This document shows, one piece after another, positions 3,272 to 17,592 of a stretch of DNA of 38,683 bases (its first letter is position 1; every line of letters starts with the position of its first letter). Under the pieces are notes generated by a model. The model saw only the letters and a list, made by a program, of their open reading frames with translations, was not told the DNA's origin and made no database searches. A program made the position numbers and the translations under genes. The stretch is from Planctomycetota bacterium (GTDB taxonomy: Bacteria; Planctomycetota; Phycisphaerae; Phycisphaerales; SM1A02): positions 1 to 38,683 of the forward strand of contig VGXR01000023.1 in assembly GCA_016873255.1 (NCBI GenBank). The letters are read 5' to 3'.

Positions 3272-3646
3272 ATGAACCAGACGATTGGAACAATCCTCCA
3301 ACTCATCGTCGGCCTGGGTCTCCTCAACGTGTGGCTGCTGCGCCGCGAGAGCGCGACGGCCTACCGCGGCGGCGAGGCGAAGAACCTGAAGGACGAATTC
3401 GCCACCTACGGTCTGCCGGCGCCGGCGTTCTACGTCGTGGGCGGGCTGAAGATCGCCTGCGGCGCGCTGCTGCTGGTGGGGCTGGCGTACGCGCCGGTCG
3501 TGCTTCCGGCGGCGGCGGTGGTCGCGGTGCTCATGCTCGGGGCGGTCGCCATGCACCTGAAGGTCAAAGATCCCGCGTCGAAGTCCGTGCCGGCGGCGCT
3601 GATGCTCGCGATGAGCGTGGCGATCTGCGTGATCTCGCGCGCGTAA
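3272..3646 (+). CDS. DoxX-like small membrane protein (copy 1)
   Basis: A 124-residue protein with four predicted membrane segments, near residues 5-20, 47-63, 66-88 and 100-121. The segment AYRGGxAKNLKxEFAxYGLP joins the first two. It is about three-quarters identical to the protein at 10249-10623, and this fixes the start: the ATG at 3272 gives both proteins 124 residues and aligns MNQTIG with MQDWIG. A GTG at 3263 is possible but less likely. DoxX/SURF4-like proteins are small inner-membrane proteins, some linked to thiosulfate-quinone oxidation or redox stress; no such partner is seen here, so the role is open. It converges with the gene at 3667-4047, 20 bp away. Confidence 0.8.
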
Positions 3647-3666
3647 CCGCGCCTTCGCCGAAGCGG

Positions 3667-4047
3667 TCACCCCGCGGAAGGCGCAAGCAGGCGCCGCAGG
3701 TCCCGCGGGTTCAGCACCACGCCGAGGTTGACCACGAGCATCCCGATCGCGAGCGCAATGCCCCGCGGGAACATCGTGACGTTGAAGACGACGATCCCGA
3801 GGGTGACGGGCAGCTGCATCAGGCCCGCCGCGAAGCGGGTGCGCGGCACCAGGAGCAGGATGCCGAGCAGCAGGTGCCCGGCCGCGAGCCAGTTCATCAG
3901 CCCGCCCTCACGGATCAGATCCCACATCTGCGCGCCGCGCGAACCATCGCTCATCGGCGGCTTGACCCAGCCGAAGGCGTGGTTCGCCGCGGAACCGATC
4001 AGTGGAACCGACAGGAGGATTGCGCTGGCGGACTGGAGGCGTCGCAT
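3667..4047 (-). CDS. DoxX-family-like membrane protein
   Basis: A 126-residue protein with about four hydrophobic segments (near residues 5-24, 50-67, 73-92 and 97-113) and the pattern HLLLGILLLVPRTRFAAGLM, typical of the second and third helices of DoxX-like proteins. It begins 24 bp after the stop codon of the CIA30-fasciclin gene on the same strand, so the two are probably cotranscribed. That link suggests a role at the cell envelope, but the biochemical function is unknown. The last residues (LLAPSAG) are soluble. Confidence 0.65.
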   Translation of the reverse strand: MRRLQSASAILLSVPLIGSAANHAFGWVKPPMSDGSRGAQMWDLIREGGLMNWLAAGHLLLGILLLVPRTRFAAGLMQLPVTLGIVVFNVTMFPRGIALAIGMLVVNLGVVLNPRDLRRLLAPSAG

Positions 4048-4071
4048 GGCGGTTCACCGCTCCTCGGTCGC

Positions 4072-5787
4072 TTACTCCACCGGCCCCCTCGATGCGCGCA
4101 CGCCCTCCAGCGCACGGTCCATCGCGCGGCGGTAGATCCAGGCCCGCTCGGCCATGTCCTGGTGCTTCGATCCGCGGTCCAGCGCCTCGGTGAGATCGGC
4201 CTTCATGCCCGGGCCGATCGCATCCGCCCCGAGGAGCGCCACCGAGGTGATCGCGAGTTCGTACATCTCGGCGCAGGACGCCTCGTCACCGGCATTGAAC
4301 CGGGGAACGCCGCGCTCGATCGCAAGCTCGAGGATCGCGGCAGCCTGCGCGGCCCGTTGCGGCGGCGTGGAGGCTGCCGGCGCGGGAGCCGGGCCGCGGG
4401 CCGGCAGCACGCGGTCGATCACGTGGATGATGCCGTTGGCCGCCTCGATGTCCGCGACCTCGATGCGCGCGCCGCCCGCGGTGATGGCGCCGGACGCAAG
4501 CGCGAAGTCCACGGTGCCGTCACCCATGAGGGTGCGGGCCGAGCCCTGCGAGAGCATCTCCTCGCGCCGGATCTTCGTCGGCAGGACGTGCGCCGCAAGC
4601 ACCGCCGTGAGCGCGGGCCGGTCGGCAAGCAGCGCCTTCAGCGAATCCGCGGGGATGGCGCCGAACGCCTCGTTCGATGGCGCCAGCAGCGTCCACGGGC
4701 CGGGGTTGCGCGAGCCGAGCTGGGGCCCGAGCCCAGCCGCGCCGATCGCGGCGCGCAGCGTGGCGAAGCGCTCGTCCTCGGCAACGACCTGCTCGATGCT
4801 GCGGAGCTCGGGCAGCATGACCGAGTCGATCGCGTGCACCAGGCCGCCGTCGAACGCGACATCCGTGGCAACCAGGCGCGCCCCGTCGACCGTCAGCGCC
4901 CCGGGATCGACCTCGAGCGACTGCCCGGACAGCGCCGGGAGCCGCCGGCGGTCGAGCACTGCCGAGCTGCCGAGCGACTGCGCAACCACATGGTGCTTCA
5001 GGATCAGCTGGAGCGCCGGCTTTCCCTTGGCGCTCGTCAGGAACTCGACCTGCTCCTTCGGCAGCCTGGCGAACGCCTCGTTGGTCGGCGCGAAGATCGT
5101 GAGCTTGGCGTCCTTCGGCAGCTCGAGCTCCGCGGCCTTCACCAGTTCGAGCAGCGTGGTGAGGTTCGCCTTCGTCGCCACCGCGGCCAGCGAACCCGCG
5201 GACGGCTGCCCCGCGGCCTGCTTGCCCATCGGCCGGATCCAGTCGACTTCGATCGCGAACGGTCCTTCGCGCTTGTCGGCGAGGGTGATGCCCACCGACT
5301 CGATGGAGGCCGGGTCGAGCGCGGGTGCGTTGCGGATGCGCTGGCCGAAGCTGTTGGCCACGCACTGGTCGAACGGGATCTCCACCTCGACCCACTCGCC
5401 GGCCTTCGTCTTGAACGTCTGCTGGTAGCCGCCGGCCATGAGTCGCAGGCGCGAGGACCGGATGTCGCACTGGTACGTGCGACCGTCGCCCTTCACGCGG
5501 AGCGTGAGCCCGGTCGTTCCCGCGAACGTGCCTTCCGGGATGGCGGTACGGATCTGCGAGAACCCGCCGTTGTTCTCGAGCGAGAGCTCTCCGGTGAAAC
5601 GCAGCGTGCCGCCTTCGCCTTCGGCGATCCGGCCGGTGGAGAGCCCGCCCATCACGCCGTCGAGGACGGTCTGCCAGCCCTTGGTCCCCTGGTCGAACTC
5701 GAGGTTCGAGTCGGGCGCCGCGGGGCAGGCGGCGCAGATGAGCAGGGCGGCGACGAGGGACGGGAAGGTCGTGGTCGGGGTTCGCAT
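4072..5787 (-). CDS. Exported CIA30-domain protein with two fasciclin domains
   Basis: A 571-residue exported protein. The start at 5787 is chosen because it opens a signal peptide (MRTPTTTF then SLVAALLICAACPAAP); the open frame continues upstream only as a shadow of the helicase. Residues about 29-185 match the CIA30/NDUFAF1-type beta-sandwich (LEFDQG, then GGLSTG, NNGGFSQIR, KGDGRTYQCD). Residues about 198-325 and 330-455 are two fasciclin (FAS1) domains, seen from FAPTNEAFARLP, LKHHVV, VHAIDSVMLP and then LAPSNEAFGAIP and IIHVIDRVLP. The last 110 residues are alpha-helical and unassigned. FAS1 domains mediate adhesion or ligand binding outside the cell; pairing with CIA30 is unusual. It diverges from the helicase (75 bp between starts) and precedes the DoxX-like gene at 3667-4047. 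A shortened paralogue lies at 11055-11510. Confidence 0.85.
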   Translation of the reverse strand: MRTPTTTFPSLVAALLICAACPAAPDSNLEFDQGTKGWQTVLDGVMGGLSTGRIAEGEGGTLRFTGELSLENNGGFSQIRTAIPEGTFAGTTGLTLRVKGDGRTYQCDIRSSRLRLMAGGYQQTFKTKAGEWVEVEIPFDQCVANSFGQRIRNAPALDPASIESVGITLADKREGPFAIEVDWIRPMGKQAAGQPSAGSLAAVATKANLTTLLELVKAAELELPKDAKLTIFAPTNEAFARLPKEQVEFLTSAKGKPALQLILKHHVVAQSLGSSAVLDRRRLPALSGQSLEVDPGALTVDGARLVATDVAFDGGLVHAIDSVMLPELRSIEQVVAEDERFATLRAAIGAAGLGPQLGSRNPGPWTLLAPSNEAFGAIPADSLKALLADRPALTAVLAAHVLPTKIRREEMLSQGSARTLMGDGTVDFALASGAITAGGARIEVADIEAANGIIHVIDRVLPARGPAPAPAASTPPQRAAQAAAILELAIERGVPRFNAGDEASCAEMYELAITSVALLGADAIGPGMKADLTEALDRGSKHQDMAERAWIYRRAMDRALEGVRASRGPVE

Positions 5788-5862
5788 GGCTCCACGGGTT
5801 CGCTCGCTGCGGGCGGCTGGATGCTGAATGCGCGCTTCCCCCAAACCGCCTACCCTGCCTCG

Positions 5863-7506
5863 ATGAACGAGACGTTCGTTGATATCGGGCTGGGACAGGA
5901 ACTCGTGGCGGAGCTTGCTTCGCTCGGCTACGAGGAGCCGACGCCCATCCAGCGGGCGGCGATCGGGCCGCTGCTTGCGGGGCGCGACCTGCTGGGCCAG
6001 GCGGCCACGGGGACGGGCAAGACCGCGGCCTTCGCGCTGCCCATGCTGCAGCGGCTGGGCGCCGAGCGCCCGGCGCCGGGGAAGCCGCTGGCACTGGTGC
6101 TGGTGCCGACGCGCGAGCTGGCCGTGCAGGTGTCCGAGGCCTTCCACCGCTACGGCCGCAAGCTGGGCACCGCGGTGGTGCCGATCTACGGCGGGCAGGA
6201 GTTCCACCGGCAGACCACGGCCCTGCGCCGCGGAGCGCACGTGGTGGTGGCCACGCCCGGGCGTGCGCTCGACCACCTGCGCCGCGGCACGCTGGACCTC
6301 TCCGAGCTGCGCATGGTGACGCTCGACGAGGCCGACGAGATGCTCGACATGGGCTTCGCCGAGGACCTCGAGCTGATCCTCGAGGCGACGCCCGAGTCCC
6401 GGCAGACCGCGCTCTTCTCCGCGACGCTGCCGCCGCGCATCGCGTCGATCGCGGAACGGCACCTGCGCGACCCCGAGCGCATCCTGATCGCACGCGACGC
6501 CGCGAAGCCCGGCTCGATGCCCAAGGTTCGGCAGGTGGCGTACATCGTGCCGCGCGCGCACAAGGTGGCGGCGCTCGGGCGTGTCCTCGACCTCGAGTCG
6601 CCGACGCTCGCGCTCGTCTTCTGCCGCACGCGGCTGGACGTGGACGAGCTTGCCGACCGCCTCGCGGGCCGCGGCTACACCGTGGCGTCGCTCCACGGCG
6701 GGATGTCGCAGGCCGAGCGCGACCGCGTGATGGCGCGCGCGCGGGCCGGATCCGTCGACCTGCTGGTGGCGACTGACGTGGCCGCGCGCGGGATCGACAT
6801 CGAGCACCTGACCCACGTGGTGAACTTCGACGTCCCGAGCTCCGCCGAGGCCTACGTGCACCGGATCGGCCGCACGGGGCGGGCAGGGCGCGAGGGCGTG
6901 GCGATCACGCTTGTCGACCCGCGCGCGCACCGGCTGCTGCGCAACATCGAGCACGCCACCAAGCAGCGCGTCTCCATCTGCACGGTGCCCACGCCGCGCG
7001 ACGTGAAGGCGCGACGCATGGACCTGACGCGCGCCGCCGTGCGCGACGCGGTGGCGGCCGGCGACCTGGACGCGTTCCGCACCATCGCGGAGTCGCTTGC
7101 CTCGGAGTTCGACCCGATGGACGTGGCCGCCGCCGCGATCCGCCTGGCGCACGAGGCCACGGAGGGCGAGGGCTCGCAGGACGACGAGGCGCACATCCCG
7201 GTGATCGAGAGCTTCGCGCGCCCCCAGCGTCCGCAGGCGCGCCCCGAGGTGGTGGACATGGTGCGCATCTACATCTCGGGCGGCACCAAGATGGGCATGC
7301 GCACCGCAGACCTCGTGGGCGCCATCGCCAACGAGGCCCGCATCAATCCGCGCGTGATCGGCGACATCGAGATCGCCGAGGGCTACTCGCTGGTGGAGCT
7401 CCCGGCGCGCGACGTGGACCACGTCATCCGCGCGCTGCGCGGCGCCACCATGCGCGGCCGTCGGCTCAAGATCCACCGCGACCTGGGGATGCGGCCGAAG
7501 CAGTGA
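5863..7506 (+). CDS. DEAD-box ATP-dependent RNA helicase with C-terminal RNA-binding domain
   Basis: A 547-residue cytoplasmic RNA helicase of the DeaD/CsdA-like type that unwinds RNA duplexes, usually in ribosome assembly and cold adaptation. Motifs in order: Q motif GYEEPTPIQ (22-30), Walker A AATGTGKT (47-54), PTRELA (82-87), TPGR (131-134), DEAD (155-158), SAT (186-188), ATDVAARGID and HRIGRTGRAGR near residues 303-347. Residues about 470-545 (MVRIYISGGTKMGM to LKIHRD) fit the DbpA-type RNA-binding domain that CsdA-like helicases carry. The start at 5863 (MNETF) places the Q-motif phenylalanine normally; an in-frame ATG at 5821 would add 14 residues without homology. All catalytic motifs are intact. 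Confidence 0.95.
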   Translation: MNETFVDIGLGQELVAELASLGYEEPTPIQRAAIGPLLAGRDLLGQAATGTGKTAAFALPMLQRLGAERPAPGKPLALVLVPTRELAVQVSEAFHRYGRKLGTAVVPIYGGQEFHRQTTALRRGAHVVVATPGRALDHLRRGTLDLSELRMVTLDEADEMLDMGFAEDLELILEATPESRQTALFSATLPPRIASIAERHLRDPERILIARDAAKPGSMPKVRQVAYIVPRAHKVAALGRVLDLESPTLALVFCRTRLDVDELADRLAGRGYTVASLHGGMSQAERDRVMARARAGSVDLLVATDVAARGIDIEHLTHVVNFDVPSSAEAYVHRIGRTGRAGREGVAITLVDPRAHRLLRNIEHATKQRVSICTVPTPRDVKARRMDLTRAAVRDAVAAGDLDAFRTIAESLASEFDPMDVAAAAIRLAHEATEGEGSQDDEAHIPVIESFARPQRPQARPEVVDMVRIYISGGTKMGMRTADLVGAIANEARINPRVIGDIEIAEGYSLVELPARDVDHVIRALRGATMRGRRLKIHRDLGMRPKQ

Positions 7507-10248: not shown

Positions 10249-10623
10249 TCACGCGCGCGCTATCACGCAGATCGCCGCGCTCATGGCGAGCATGAGCGAA
10301 GCCGGCACGAACTTGCTCACCGGATCGCCGACCTTCAGGTGCATGGCGACCGCGCCGAGCATCAGCAGGGCCACCACTGCCGCGGCAGGCATCACGACCG
10401 GCGCATACCAGAGGCCGACGAGGAGCAGCACGCCGCAGGCGATCTTGAGGCCGCCGACGATGTAGAACATCGGCGCCGGGAGCCCGTAGGCCGCGAACTC
10501 CTCCTTGAGGTTCTTGGCATCGCCACCGCGATAGGCCGTCGCGCTCTGGCGACGCAGGAGCCACACGTTCAGAAGGCCAAGGCCGACGACGACTTGGAGC
10601 GCGAGGCCGATCCAGTCCTGCAT
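10249..10623 (-). CDS. DoxX-like small membrane protein (copy 2)
   Basis: A 124-residue paralogue of the protein at 3272-3646, sharing [29 protein letters not shown] and GAVAMHLKV, with four membrane segments in the same places. The ATG at 10623 aligns with the start of copy 1; a GTG at 10632 would add three residues. It is transcribed away from the DoxX-like gene at 10676-11035, with 52 bp between the two starts, so both promoters must overlap there. Function unknown beyond the DoxX-like membrane fold. Confidence 0.8.
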
Positions 10624-10675
10624 TCCCGGCACGATATCCGGTGGCGATGATCGCTGCCTCGCCTAACCTTCCGGC

Positions 10676-11035
10676 TTGCCGTCCTCGCTGCCAATCGCCT
10701 TCGAAGCCGCCCGTGCAGCCTCGGTCCTCGCGTTCCTCGGCTACGGCGTTGCCTGCCTGTTCAGCCGGCACATGGATGCCGAGTTCAAGCGCTACGGCCT
10801 GGCACGCTTCCGTCGCCTCGTCGGCGCCCTCGAGTGCCTTGGCGCGCTCGGGCTGCTGGCGGGCCAGTTCAGCCACCCGGTGCTCGTCATGGCCGCCGCG
10901 GGCCTCGCGCTCCTGATGATCTTGGCCGTCTTCACGCGTGTCCGCGTCGGGGATCCCCTGGTGCAGGTGCTGCCGGCGATCGCGCTCCTGTGCCTGAATG
11001 CGTTCGTGCTCGGTGTCGCGCTCACGCGCTCGTAG
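10676..11035 (+). CDS. DoxX-like membrane protein, divergent partner of 10249-10623
   Basis: A 119-residue protein starting with TTG. Four hydrophobic segments (near residues 10-28, 48-62, 68-84 and 97-115) surround the charged loop SRHMDAEFKRYGLARFRR. The pattern LECLGALGLLAGQFSHPVLV resembles the second and third helices of DoxX-like proteins. The pair with the gene at 10249-10623 is a divergent unit; the same unit is present in inverted orientation at 3.1-3.6 kb, but there this gene is reduced to a relic. A relic of the CIA30-fasciclin gene begins 20 bp downstream. Function unknown. Confidence 0.65.
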   Translation: MPSSLPIAFEAARAASVLAFLGYGVACLFSRHMDAEFKRYGLARFRRLVGALECLGALGLLAGQFSHPVLVMAAAGLALLMILAVFTRVRVGDPLVQVLPAIALLCLNAFVLGVALTRS

Positions 11036-11054
11036 GCGCGGCCGGCGCGGATTT

Positions 11055-11510
11055 CGGCGTCTTCCGGCCCCCGCGGCCTGATCCTGCGCGCGAAGGGCGA
11101 CGGGCGAACTTGTCAGCGGGGCATCCGGTCCCATCGGCAAGGCGAGCCTCGCCACGCTCCTTGGACCTGCCAGGGCCGCCGGGATCGAACTGTCGAAGGA
11201 CGCAAAAGTCAGGGCCCTCGCGCCGACCACCAACGCGGCGAACGGGATCATCCATGCGATCGTCCGCATGCTGCCCGCCCCCAGCCAGGCCTCCGCATCG
11301 ACTGCCTCCACGCCGCTGCAGCAGGCTGCGCGGGCTGCCGAGATCCCGGAACTCGCGGTCGAGCGAGGCGCTCCGCGCTCCTCTGCCGGTGACGAGGAGT
11401 CGTGTGCCGCGATGTCCGAACGTGCGTTCGGCTCGGTGGTGCTGCTCGGCAAGGACGCCATCGGCGAGGATTCCTGCAAGCTCGGCAGGATGGCCCATCC
11501 GATGAAGCCG
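11055..11510 (+). pseudogene. Shortened relic of the CIA30-fasciclin gene
   Basis: Four pieces of the intact protein at 4072-5787 survive here with the middle missing. About 11057-11125 reads GLILRAKGDGRT (intact GLTLRVKGDGRT, CIA30 domain). After a frame change, about 11128-11225 reads ATLLGPARAAGIELSKDAKV, the start of the first fasciclin domain. This jumps directly to ANGIIHAIVRMLP, the end of the second fasciclin domain (intact ANGIIHVIDRVLP). The helical tail follows, with AGDEESCAAM for AGDEASCAEM. So most of the CIA30 domain, nearly all of the first fasciclin domain and most of the second are deleted. No start codon, signal peptide or single open frame remains. It lies on the same strand as, and right after, the DoxX-like gene at 10676-11035. 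Confidence 0.85.
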
Positions 11511-11550
11511 TTGGATGGACGAATGCATCGTCCGGAGCGCCAGCAAAGGG

Positions 11551-11582
11551 CCGCGGCCCCGCCGGTGAGGGCGGGGCCGCGG
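11551..11582 (-). terminator. Strong hairpin after the double-fasciclin gene
   Basis: CCGCGGCCCCGCC (11551-11563) pairs perfectly with GGCGGGGCCGCGG (11570-11582) around a six-base loop. It lies 45 bp past the stop of the minus-strand fasciclin gene at 11627-12571, and on that strand it is followed by CCCTTTGC, a weak T tract. An intrinsic terminator for that gene is the simplest reading; it would also block read-through from the relic on the plus strand. Confidence 0.7.
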
Positions 11583-11626
11583 CGGTTGCCTTCAGGCCGG
11601 AGCGTCGACCGCTCCGGAAAGCGCCG

Positions 11627-12571
11627 TCACTCCTTCTTGGCAGGCGGCAGGATCACGGTGTCGATGACATGGATGACGCCGTTGGACGCCTGCACATCCG
11701 CGGCCACCACGGTTGCGCCGTCGACCATCGCCTTGCCGTCAACGACCTTGACGGCCGCTGGCCGCCCGAGCACCGTCGGCACCGAGGTCATCGTCACCAG
11801 GGAGTCGCTGTACACGGCCTTGCCGGCGACGACGTGGTAGGTGAGGATGTCAGCGAGCTGCTGCTTGTTCTCAGGCTTCAGGAGCATCTCCAGGGTGCCG
11901 GCAGGCAGCTTTGCGAACGCCGCATCGGTGGGCGCAAAGACCGTGAACGGCCCCTTCCCCGACAGCGTTTCCGCAAGACCGGCTGCCTTGACGGCAGCGA
12001 CCAGCGTGTTGAAGGAGCCGTTCTTCGCCGCGACATCGACGACGGTCCCGTCGACCGGCAGGATCACGCGGTCGATCACATGGATGACGCCGTTTGAGCA
12101 CGCGATGTCCGTGGCCACGACATCGGCCCCGTCGACCTTGACCTTGCCGCCGTCCACGCCGATCTTGACGCGCTGACCGTTGGCGGTGCCCGCGCTCTGC
12201 AGCTTGACGACATCCGCTGCCTTCACCGTGCCCGGCACCACGTGGTAGGTGAGGATCGCGGCCAGCTTGCCCTTGTTCTCAGGCTTGAGGAGCATCTCCA
12301 GCGTGCCGGCGGGCAGCTTGGCGAAGGCCTCGTCGGAGGGGGCGAACACGGTGAACGGCCCGGGGCCGCTGAGCGTGTCCACGAGGCCGGCTGCCTGCAC
12401 GGCGGCAACCAGGGTCTTGAAGTTGCCGGCCGCGATGGCGGTCTGCACGATGTTTGACGTGGCGGCCGGCGCCTTGCCGGCGGGCGGCGTGGCCTCAGCG
12501 TACTGCGACGCGGCCAGGGCGGCGGAGGGATCGACGGACAGTGCGAGCGATGCAACGAGTGCGGTGAGCAT
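11627..12571 (-). CDS. Exported protein with two fasciclin (FAS1) domains
   Basis: A 314-residue exported protein. Its start (ATG at 12571) has AAGGA five bases upstream and opens a signal peptide ([20 protein letters not shown]). Two FAS1 domains fill the rest: residues about 38-175 and 177-312. Each has the FAS1 H1 motif ([20 protein letters not shown] and [20 protein letters not shown]), the central LTYHVVPG / LTYHVVAG and the H2-like [13 protein letters not shown]. The two domains are much alike, from an internal duplication. FAS1 proteins act in adhesion or surface binding; no anchor is visible, so the product is probably secreted or periplasmic. It is only distantly related to the CIA30-fasciclin protein. 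Confidence 0.93.
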
Positions 12572-13347
12572 GAGAATCCTTCGCGGAAGGTGCGGGCCGA
12601 GGGACAGCACTTGAGGGCACCTGCCTCGGCCGGCGGGACATGGGTGACAGGAACAACGGGACGCGGCGACGATTCGCCAGTTGCGGTTGCTTCGCCGGTC
12701 AGCGGGGCTCGGATTCACCCGGGACTGTCGATCGCATTCGGAACCCCCGTGGCCTGCGGATATGGCTGAAACTCTCTGCTCTTCTCGGTCGTCCGGAACC
12801 TGACCGCATGAGTTGCCGGGCGGCGCCCCCAGCAACTCACGGGACGATGTTTCCGGCACCCATCGAGGGCACCCTGCGCGATGCCTGTCGAACCGGTCCC
12901 GGCTTGACCCACCGCTGTCGGGGTCTTCACGCCCGCCACGCCGGCGGTGGCCGACCGCGCGAACATGCGTCCGACCTGTTTCGGCGCACCGACCGACCAC
13001 GCGCGCGACACAGCCGCCGTCGAACGCCTCGGGCGCGTTTTGCTTTCGGGGGAGTCTCGCCCGGGCTCAAGCCCCTTCTTCGGCCTTGACTTGGATAATC
13101 CGCACCACGAAAGATTCCCTTTCCCCCTTTTAGGTAAGGCATTTGCCGCCCCTTTCTCGCTTCTCGGCATGGGGTTCGGCATCGCCCCCAGCAGCGTGCC
13201 GGAGCGCGCATCGCAAGACGAGTTCGACTGCCTTGGTCTTGGCGAACAATCCCGGGTGACGGGTTGCTCGCCGACGGGATCGGCGGTGACGCACCTGCAC
13301 GCGGAGTGTGGGCAATCAAGCGGGGCCTCGCCCCAGGAGCTTTGGAA
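12572..13347. other. 776-bp region without a convincing gene
   Basis: Between the divergent fasciclin gene and the first PEP-CTERM-like gene. Open frames exist on both strands, but they are Arg/Pro-rich, lack ribosome sites and resemble nothing, as expected of random high-GC sequence. The part at about 13081-13150 is poorer in GC (pyrimidine runs CCCTTTCCCCCTTTTAGG) and contains TTGACTTGGATAAT, so a promoter may lie there. A hairpin or a small RNA could not be identified with confidence. Confidence 0.4.
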
Positions 13348-17109: not shown

Positions 17110-17592
17110 CACCCAGCGCGAGGGCGTGGAGGCACACATCAAGAGCCAAGCGACCGAGGGCGGGACGATGCTGCCGACCCGCTACGGCGATGGCGGCCTC
17201 TCCGGCGGCAACCTCGAGCGCCCGGCGCTCAAGCGGCTCCCAGCTGGCATCGAGGCAGGCCACGTCGACTGCGTCGTCGTCTACAAGGTCGACCGCATGA
17301 GCAGGTCGCTCATCGACTTCAAGCTGGTGATGGAGGTCTTCGACCGGCGCAAGGTGTCGTTCGTCTCCGTCATGCAGCAGTTCAACACGGCGCAGTCGAT
17401 GGGCCGCCCGACGCTGCACATCCCCCGTCCCTCGCCCAGTTCGAGCGCGAGATGATCCGCAAGCGCGTTCGCACCAAGATTGCCGCCCATTGCCGCAAGG
17501 GGGAGTGGTCTGGTGGTGTGCCCGCCCTCGGCTACTGCGTCGACCGCAGCGGCCAGAGGCCACGCCTCGTCGTCGTCGCCCCGGTTCGATAA
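17041..17592 (+). pseudogene. Broken serine recombinase (resolvase family)
   Basis: The coding frame reads MRCAT-stop-QRKSTEEGLDRDFNSLDTQR from 17041, where the family has a tyrosine in place of the stop (TAA near 17056; normal text is about YTRKSTEEGLDQ). It then reads GDGGLSGGNLERPALKRL and VVVYKVDRMSRSLIDF, the nucleophile-domain core, and FVSVMQQFNTAQSMGR. Near 17415-17430 a frameshift occurs, after which another frame gives SLAQFEREMIRKRVRTKIAA and GEWSGGVPALGYCVDR before ending at 17592, far short of the several hundred further residues of a large serine recombinase. The gene is thus inactive on three counts: a stop, a frameshift and the loss of the DNA-binding part. It marks a former mobile element. 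Confidence 0.9.

Follow-up and report, generated by a model that had tools for sequence, protein, structure and literature searches.

Here, we conclude that positions 11063-11473 of the window (the whole 38,683-nt stretch of DNA that was analysed) are very probably what is left of a second CIA30-fasciclin-fasciclin gene, a fragment without function that decays neutrally; the intact copy lies 5.3 thousand bases away. We call the fragment a relic, and we read it as a pseudogene fragment because its nonsynonymous to synonymous ratio (N:S) is neutral, because 20 of 66 otherwise invariant residues are altered, and because its first piece is out of frame with the rest. The annotation is corrected in that there is no gene at 11063-11473. 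That redundant gene copies decay is well known, and the relic offers a readable example of such decay of a duplicated gene in a planctomycete draft genome.

The relic and its loss of constraint

When 10901-11640 was compared by blastn with the reverse complement of 3901-5900, three collinear blocks were found on the same strand (Table 1). An nhmmer search with a DNA profile, which is partly dependent on the blastn test as the profile is built from 18 intact genes (the window's own and those of 17 relatives), recovers the pieces at 11063-11131, 11138-11238, and 11231-11473. In both searches the similarity is far beyond chance. The three pieces, ordered and on one strand, are 76.6% identical to the intact copy over 384 nt (43/57, 74/99, and 177/228 nt, respectively), so that about 22% of the gene (384/1716 nt; 128 of 571 residues) can be aligned.

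The original prediction placed decayed scraps of a CIA30-fasciclin gene at 11055-11510 and held that they kept only the ends of the domains. Blocks and profile bear out the scraps themselves, but the supported similarity is confined to 11063-11473, and the last ~45 codons of the intact gene have no profile match in the relic. The start of the first fasciclin domain (residues 206-238), and the end of the second together with the beginning of the tail (450-525), are indeed domain ends, but the CIA30 piece (93-111) is from the middle of its domain (Pfam match 34-181). In the intact copy, the second fasciclin domain has its Pfam match at residues 340-461 and the first lies at window 4810-5166; by eye, the start of the 571-residue protein resembles a putative signal peptide.

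Table 1. Coordinates of the relic, its parts, and the neighbouring genes in the window (G001, a congeneric genome)
Feature	Position	Strand	Details
Intact paralog, 571 aa: CIA30, two fasciclin domains, C-terminal tail	4072..5787	-	Translation; Pfam PF08547, PF02469
DoxX-like gene b	10249..10632	-	PF13564; blastn paralog of 3272-3646 (+), 318/398 nt identical
DoxX-like gene d	10676..11035	+	PF13564, E 1.2e-14; matched in 8/13 congeners; stop codon 27 nt from relic
Relic piece 1, mid-CIA30	11063..11131	+	Core 11075-11131 = residues 93-111 = window 5511-5455; nhmmer E 6.9e-9
blastn block	11084-11131		E 2e-7, 79%, 48 nt
Probable scrap of the CIA30-FAS1 linker	11132..11141	+	~10 nt; resembles P-I-G-K of G001; by-eye match to orthologs at 5238-5197
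Relic piece 2, start of fasciclin domain 1	11139..11237	+	Residues 206-238 = window 5172-5074; nhmmer E 4.6e-13
blastn block	11139-11237		E 2e-14, 75%, 99 nt
Joint of the largest deletion (633 or 636 nt)	11228..11241	+	Two nhmmer matches overlap; joint fits
blastn block	11235-11465		E 7e-51, 78%, 231 nt, gap-free
Relic piece 3, end of fasciclin domain 2 and first part of C-terminal tail	11238..11473	+	Residues 450-525 = window 4440-4213 and a few bases; ungapped; nhmmer E 6.1e-37
Intact two-domain fasciclin gene, convergent with relic	11627..12604	-	PF02469, E 1e-82; 12604 is the end of the translated stretch

On the relic's branch we counted 54 polarised changes, a figure that omits 23 of the 90 relic-intact differences as ambiguous and so preferentially removes variable third positions. 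They fall as 13, 25, and 16 at codon positions 1, 2, and 3, and 40 are nonsynonymous to 14 synonymous, a ratio of 2.9; the neutral expectation on the relic's codons is 2.7, 2.5, or 2.3 at transition weights of 1, 2, and 4. Control branches filtered alike (22-37 omitted out of 63-92 differences) gave, in ten counts from nine intact relatives, 8:23 to 17:13 (0.35-1.3), and second positions had 0-6 changes. For the intact copy itself, N:S spans 0.9 to 1.6, somewhat high among functional genes: four comparisons gave 10:11 to 13:10, and the one with the relic, based on 13 changes, gave 8:5 (1.6). The invariance count was repeated by leaving out each of the 18 intact genes in turn, which gave 0-2 altered residues. 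The differences in piece 1 are mostly at third positions (1/4/9), and given this bias part of the divergence between relic and intact copy may be older than the decay.

The reading frame of piece 1 differs from that of pieces 2 and 3 (11075 to 11139 is 64 nt, a shift of +1). The relic thus combines homology to an intact gene with disabling lesions (missing ends, the +1 shift, and internal losses) and lost purifying selection, as a pseudogene does, and it lacks the complete CIA30 and fasciclin domains of a functional CIA30-fasciclin gene.

Origin of the second copy and the DoxX neighbourhood

How might a second copy have come to lie here? We favour a duplication of the gene within this lineage, judging from gene order and trees. 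The copy would have arrived with a duplication and rearrangement that also split a trio of DoxX-like genes, possibly without its 5' end from birth, because the relic begins so soon after the stop codon of DoxX d, and would have been expressed never or only briefly. The trio d(-) a(+) c(-) stands together in 8 of 13 congeners (G002, G003, G004, G005, G008, G009, G010, and G013; d runs off the contig end in G004, and in G009 a contig end carries an additional partial d), d being unmatched in the other five. In the window, a(+) and c(-) (3272-4047) lie by the intact CIA30-fasciclin gene and an inverted b(-) d(+) (10249-11035) by the relic, and these surroundings point to a local rearrangement. 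In the best tree the relic and the intact copy are paired, with support of 95 in the 384-nt tree and 90/97 in the full alignment (where the pairing is not starred), and grouping the relic with G001 is disfavoured (p-AU 0.025). Other groupings, with p-AU values of 0.14 (intact copy with G001), 0.10 (relic with G005), and 0.087 (intact copy with G001, G075, G081, G062, and G007, the relic excluded), were not rejected. Two were rejected, the intact copy with G081 (p-AU 1e-6) and with G081, G062, and G007 (0.005), but both conflict with the best tree elsewhere as well and so carry little information on the relic.

The relic may instead be an older paralog, or the former resident beside the fasciclin gene, the copy at 4072-5787 being the one that moved; we hold this to be a possible, if doubtful, origin, and it contradicts only the origin given above and not our main claim. 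In G075, which belongs to the same family, the full gene and the fasciclin gene converge, with 174 nt between the match ends, just as relic and fasciclin gene do here (in G012 the two genes are adjacent but divergent). The relic's branch is also about ten times that of the intact copy (0.37 vs 0.037; across the trees, 0.36-0.37 and 0.04-0.05), which we judged, rather than computed, to be too long for a late duplication followed by neutral decay. DoxX a and b, moreover, are each closer to the G005 copy (86% and 85%) than to each other (80%), the three forming a trichotomy in which the grouping of a with b is not rejected (p-AU 0.08). Against these points stand the pairing in the best tree, the disfavoured grouping with G001, and G004, where the fasciclin gene is separated from DoxX d by another long frame (L088:5869-7146, minus strand) and no relic is present. 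By eye, the product of that frame looks like a putative acetyltransferase fused to an AAA ATPase.

In the eight congeners with DoxX d, no profile match to the relic better than E 0.88 was found within ~1.5 kb of d. Longer stretches around d matched only the intact gene of G005, the fasciclin gene of G004, and 42 nt of G005 (E 0.049, 12 kb from d), which we take as chance.

Several further observations were made in this neighbourhood. In G005 (G005:C10, L074:5384-5452), a fasciclin scrap corresponding to residues 186-208 of the product of 11627-12604 (83%, E ~2e-5) has DoxX c on one side and the intact CIA30-fasciclin gene on the other. In G010, an N-terminal CIA30-fasciclin scrap of ~48 residues with one in-frame stop (L089:3514-3657, G010:C31) lies within a 23-kb contig, and seems to represent a second such decayed copy within the genus. 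Copies thus seem to come and go around the CIA30-fasciclin gene, the fasciclin gene, and the DoxX trio, and the G005 and G010 scraps look like further leftovers. Downstream of the window's fasciclin gene, 11540-11600 carries G+C-rich inverted repeats, by eye with a similar hairpin seemingly after the G004 fasciclin gene, and 11553-11601 matches G001:C137 (80% over 49 nt). Farther off, a short frame at 17126-17455 (+) may encode a truncated serine recombinase, as it resembles the N-terminal portion of such a protein.

Proposed internal deletions and their joints

Two or three internal deletions would have shrunk the copy, with point mutations accumulating alongside. Slippage or illegitimate recombination at short direct repeats probably produced some of these deletions. 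Of the gene's 1716 nt, 1332 cannot be aligned: 276 nt precede the core of piece 1, 141 nt belong to the 3' end, and ~0.91 kb is internal. Several internal deletions had indeed been predicted, but the predicted internal loss of over 1 kb is reached only when the missing gene ends are included (1716 - 384 = 1332 nt).

The number of deletions depends on the sequence between pieces 1 and 2, which is ATCCGG TCC CATCGGC AAG in the relic and ATCCGG CCG ATGGGC AAG in the intact copy, while the end of CIA30 in G001 reads ATCCGC CCG ATCGGC AAG. Judging from this likeness, a ~10-nt scrap of the linker, containing one extra base that would shift the frame, has probably been kept. With this scrap accepted, there would be three deletions of 225, 51, and 633 nt (or 636 nt for the last), and the nucleotide alignment with the intact copy, proposed with the original prediction as its check, maps the three pieces and places direct repeats of the intact copy of 6 (ATCCGG), 3 (AAG), and 7 bp (CGAGGCG) at the inferred joints. 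Joints and repeats are approximate, as they are read from a 77% identical paralog and 23% of sites differ from the relic.

Among all deletions of 42-701 nt within the intact gene, which served as the null, a repeat of at least 6 bp arises by chance in 0.47% (in-frame 0.84%) and one of at least 7 bp in 0.19% (in-frame 0.34%), while at least 3 bp, as at the third inferred deletion (AAG), which rests on the linker scrap, arises in 8.5-11%. Under a looser null, 3.7-4.2% of random deletions have a 6-mer repeat near both ends. The repeats favour repeat-mediated deletion at these inferred joints, and such a mechanism is likely for the deletion within CIA30, as far as joints drawn from a 77%-identical paralog allow.

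For the largest deletion, the original prediction had named a joint (TNEA / IEAA) and microhomology there. The 7-bp repeat is present in the intact paralog, but a 633-nt deletion using it leaves 39 mismatches, and the better fit, with 36, is a 636-nt deletion with a 3-nt insertion and 0-1 bp of overlap. Equally good joints fall at 11228-11235 without the insertion and at 11235, 11236, and 11241 with it. Deletion at microhomology as proposed is no more than plausible, and the earlier interpretation is partly supported, being right in kind and too precise at the joint.

All of the inferred lengths are multiples of three. Could the shrinking copy still have worked, passing through a fasciclin-poor CIA30-tail protein before the frameshift? 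We consider this improbable. Chance alone would leave the frame intact through three independent deletions in 1 of 27 cases, a figure that needs the 10-nt linker scrap and takes no account of same-phase repeats in coding DNA, which make in-frame deletions likelier.

More improbable still is that the region is a short functional gene encoding a compact CIA30-tail protein. The frame is stop-free from 11082 to 11840, or from an ATG at 11268 (11268-11840), the deletion lengths just noted fit an open frame, and three other genomes have CIA30 and tail without a fasciclin match between them (G034, G035, where the tail match has one TGA, and G092). The neutral N:S, the altered invariant residues, and the frameshift that separates pieces 1 and 2 all speak against such a gene, however, and frame 11082-11840 has no Pfam match at E 0.01 and extends onto the fasciclin gene in antisense direction. 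The window is rich in long overlapping frames (160 of at least 90 aa), and its G+C content is 64-74% per kilobase. A scan of 10950-11700 found neither promoter nor terminator, the sigma-70-like promoter model saying little for Planctomycetota. That an assembly or binning error joined unrelated scraps, as a 152-contig draft might allow, can practically be dismissed, since a misjoin would not yield pieces that have diverged from the intact copy by 23% in a neutral manner, and the flanking DoxX d and fasciclin genes are near neighbours in G004 too, with one frame between.

The gene family and comparison with known systems

Decay by internal deletion had been set against a contiguous short gene conserved in other genomes. 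Such a homolog was searched for in 60 relatives and none was found, which, with the neutral substitutions and the long orthologs in 10 of 13 congeners (G001, G002, G003, G004, G005, G007, G008, G010, G012, and G013), upholds a relic formed by deletion. Contig ends cut the long gene in four of these (G002, G003, G010, and G012). It was not matched in G006 and G009, and G011 gave only a 37% match to its fasciclin part; all three assemblies are 64-79% complete. The ortholog set (the intact copy and 17 relatives) includes genes that are partial at contig ends (G002, G012, G010, and G090) and one without its start (G003). The relic's DNA was matched in 10 of 61 genomes, its own included, the longer matches being separate pieces inside long genes. 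The remaining short matches, of 27-49 nt, are in G001:C8, G001:C137, G015, G016, and G030:C7, and by a profile check of G001 its two are not CIA30-fasciclin pieces.

Among named carriers, the close relatives of the gene are planctomycete drafts, mostly titled Phycisphaera or Phycisphaerae/Phycisphaerales. In more distant members of the family the order of modules varies or a fasciclin match is absent (CIA30 then tail, or tail then CIA30, in G015:C13, G034:C199, G035:C13, G070:C45, G077:C268, and G092:C18), suggesting module shuffling. Among the papers that a literature search gave on any two of fasciclin, CIA30, and Planctomycetes, none appears to treat the CIA30-fasciclin-fasciclin gene.

The relic's parent family is the CIA30-fasciclin-fasciclin gene as it occurs in Phycisphaerae relatives and in further planctomycete drafts (L042-L049); unlike these genes, the relic is without both ends and without two or three internal stretches. 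The family members in which CIA30 and tail lack a fasciclin match are like the shortened intermediate considered above. The relic is an ordinary bacterial pseudogene, and no new mechanism is needed. As in bacterial pseudogenes in general (a subject treated in PMC2916853), a disrupted, unconstrained copy stands beside an intact relative, and it differs from them in how little of the gene is alignable. Prokaryotic deletions at short direct repeats are described for Haloquadratum walsbyi (PMC3119063), where indels between two strains could be located with single-base resolution, whereas the joints of the relic are inferred across 23% divergence.
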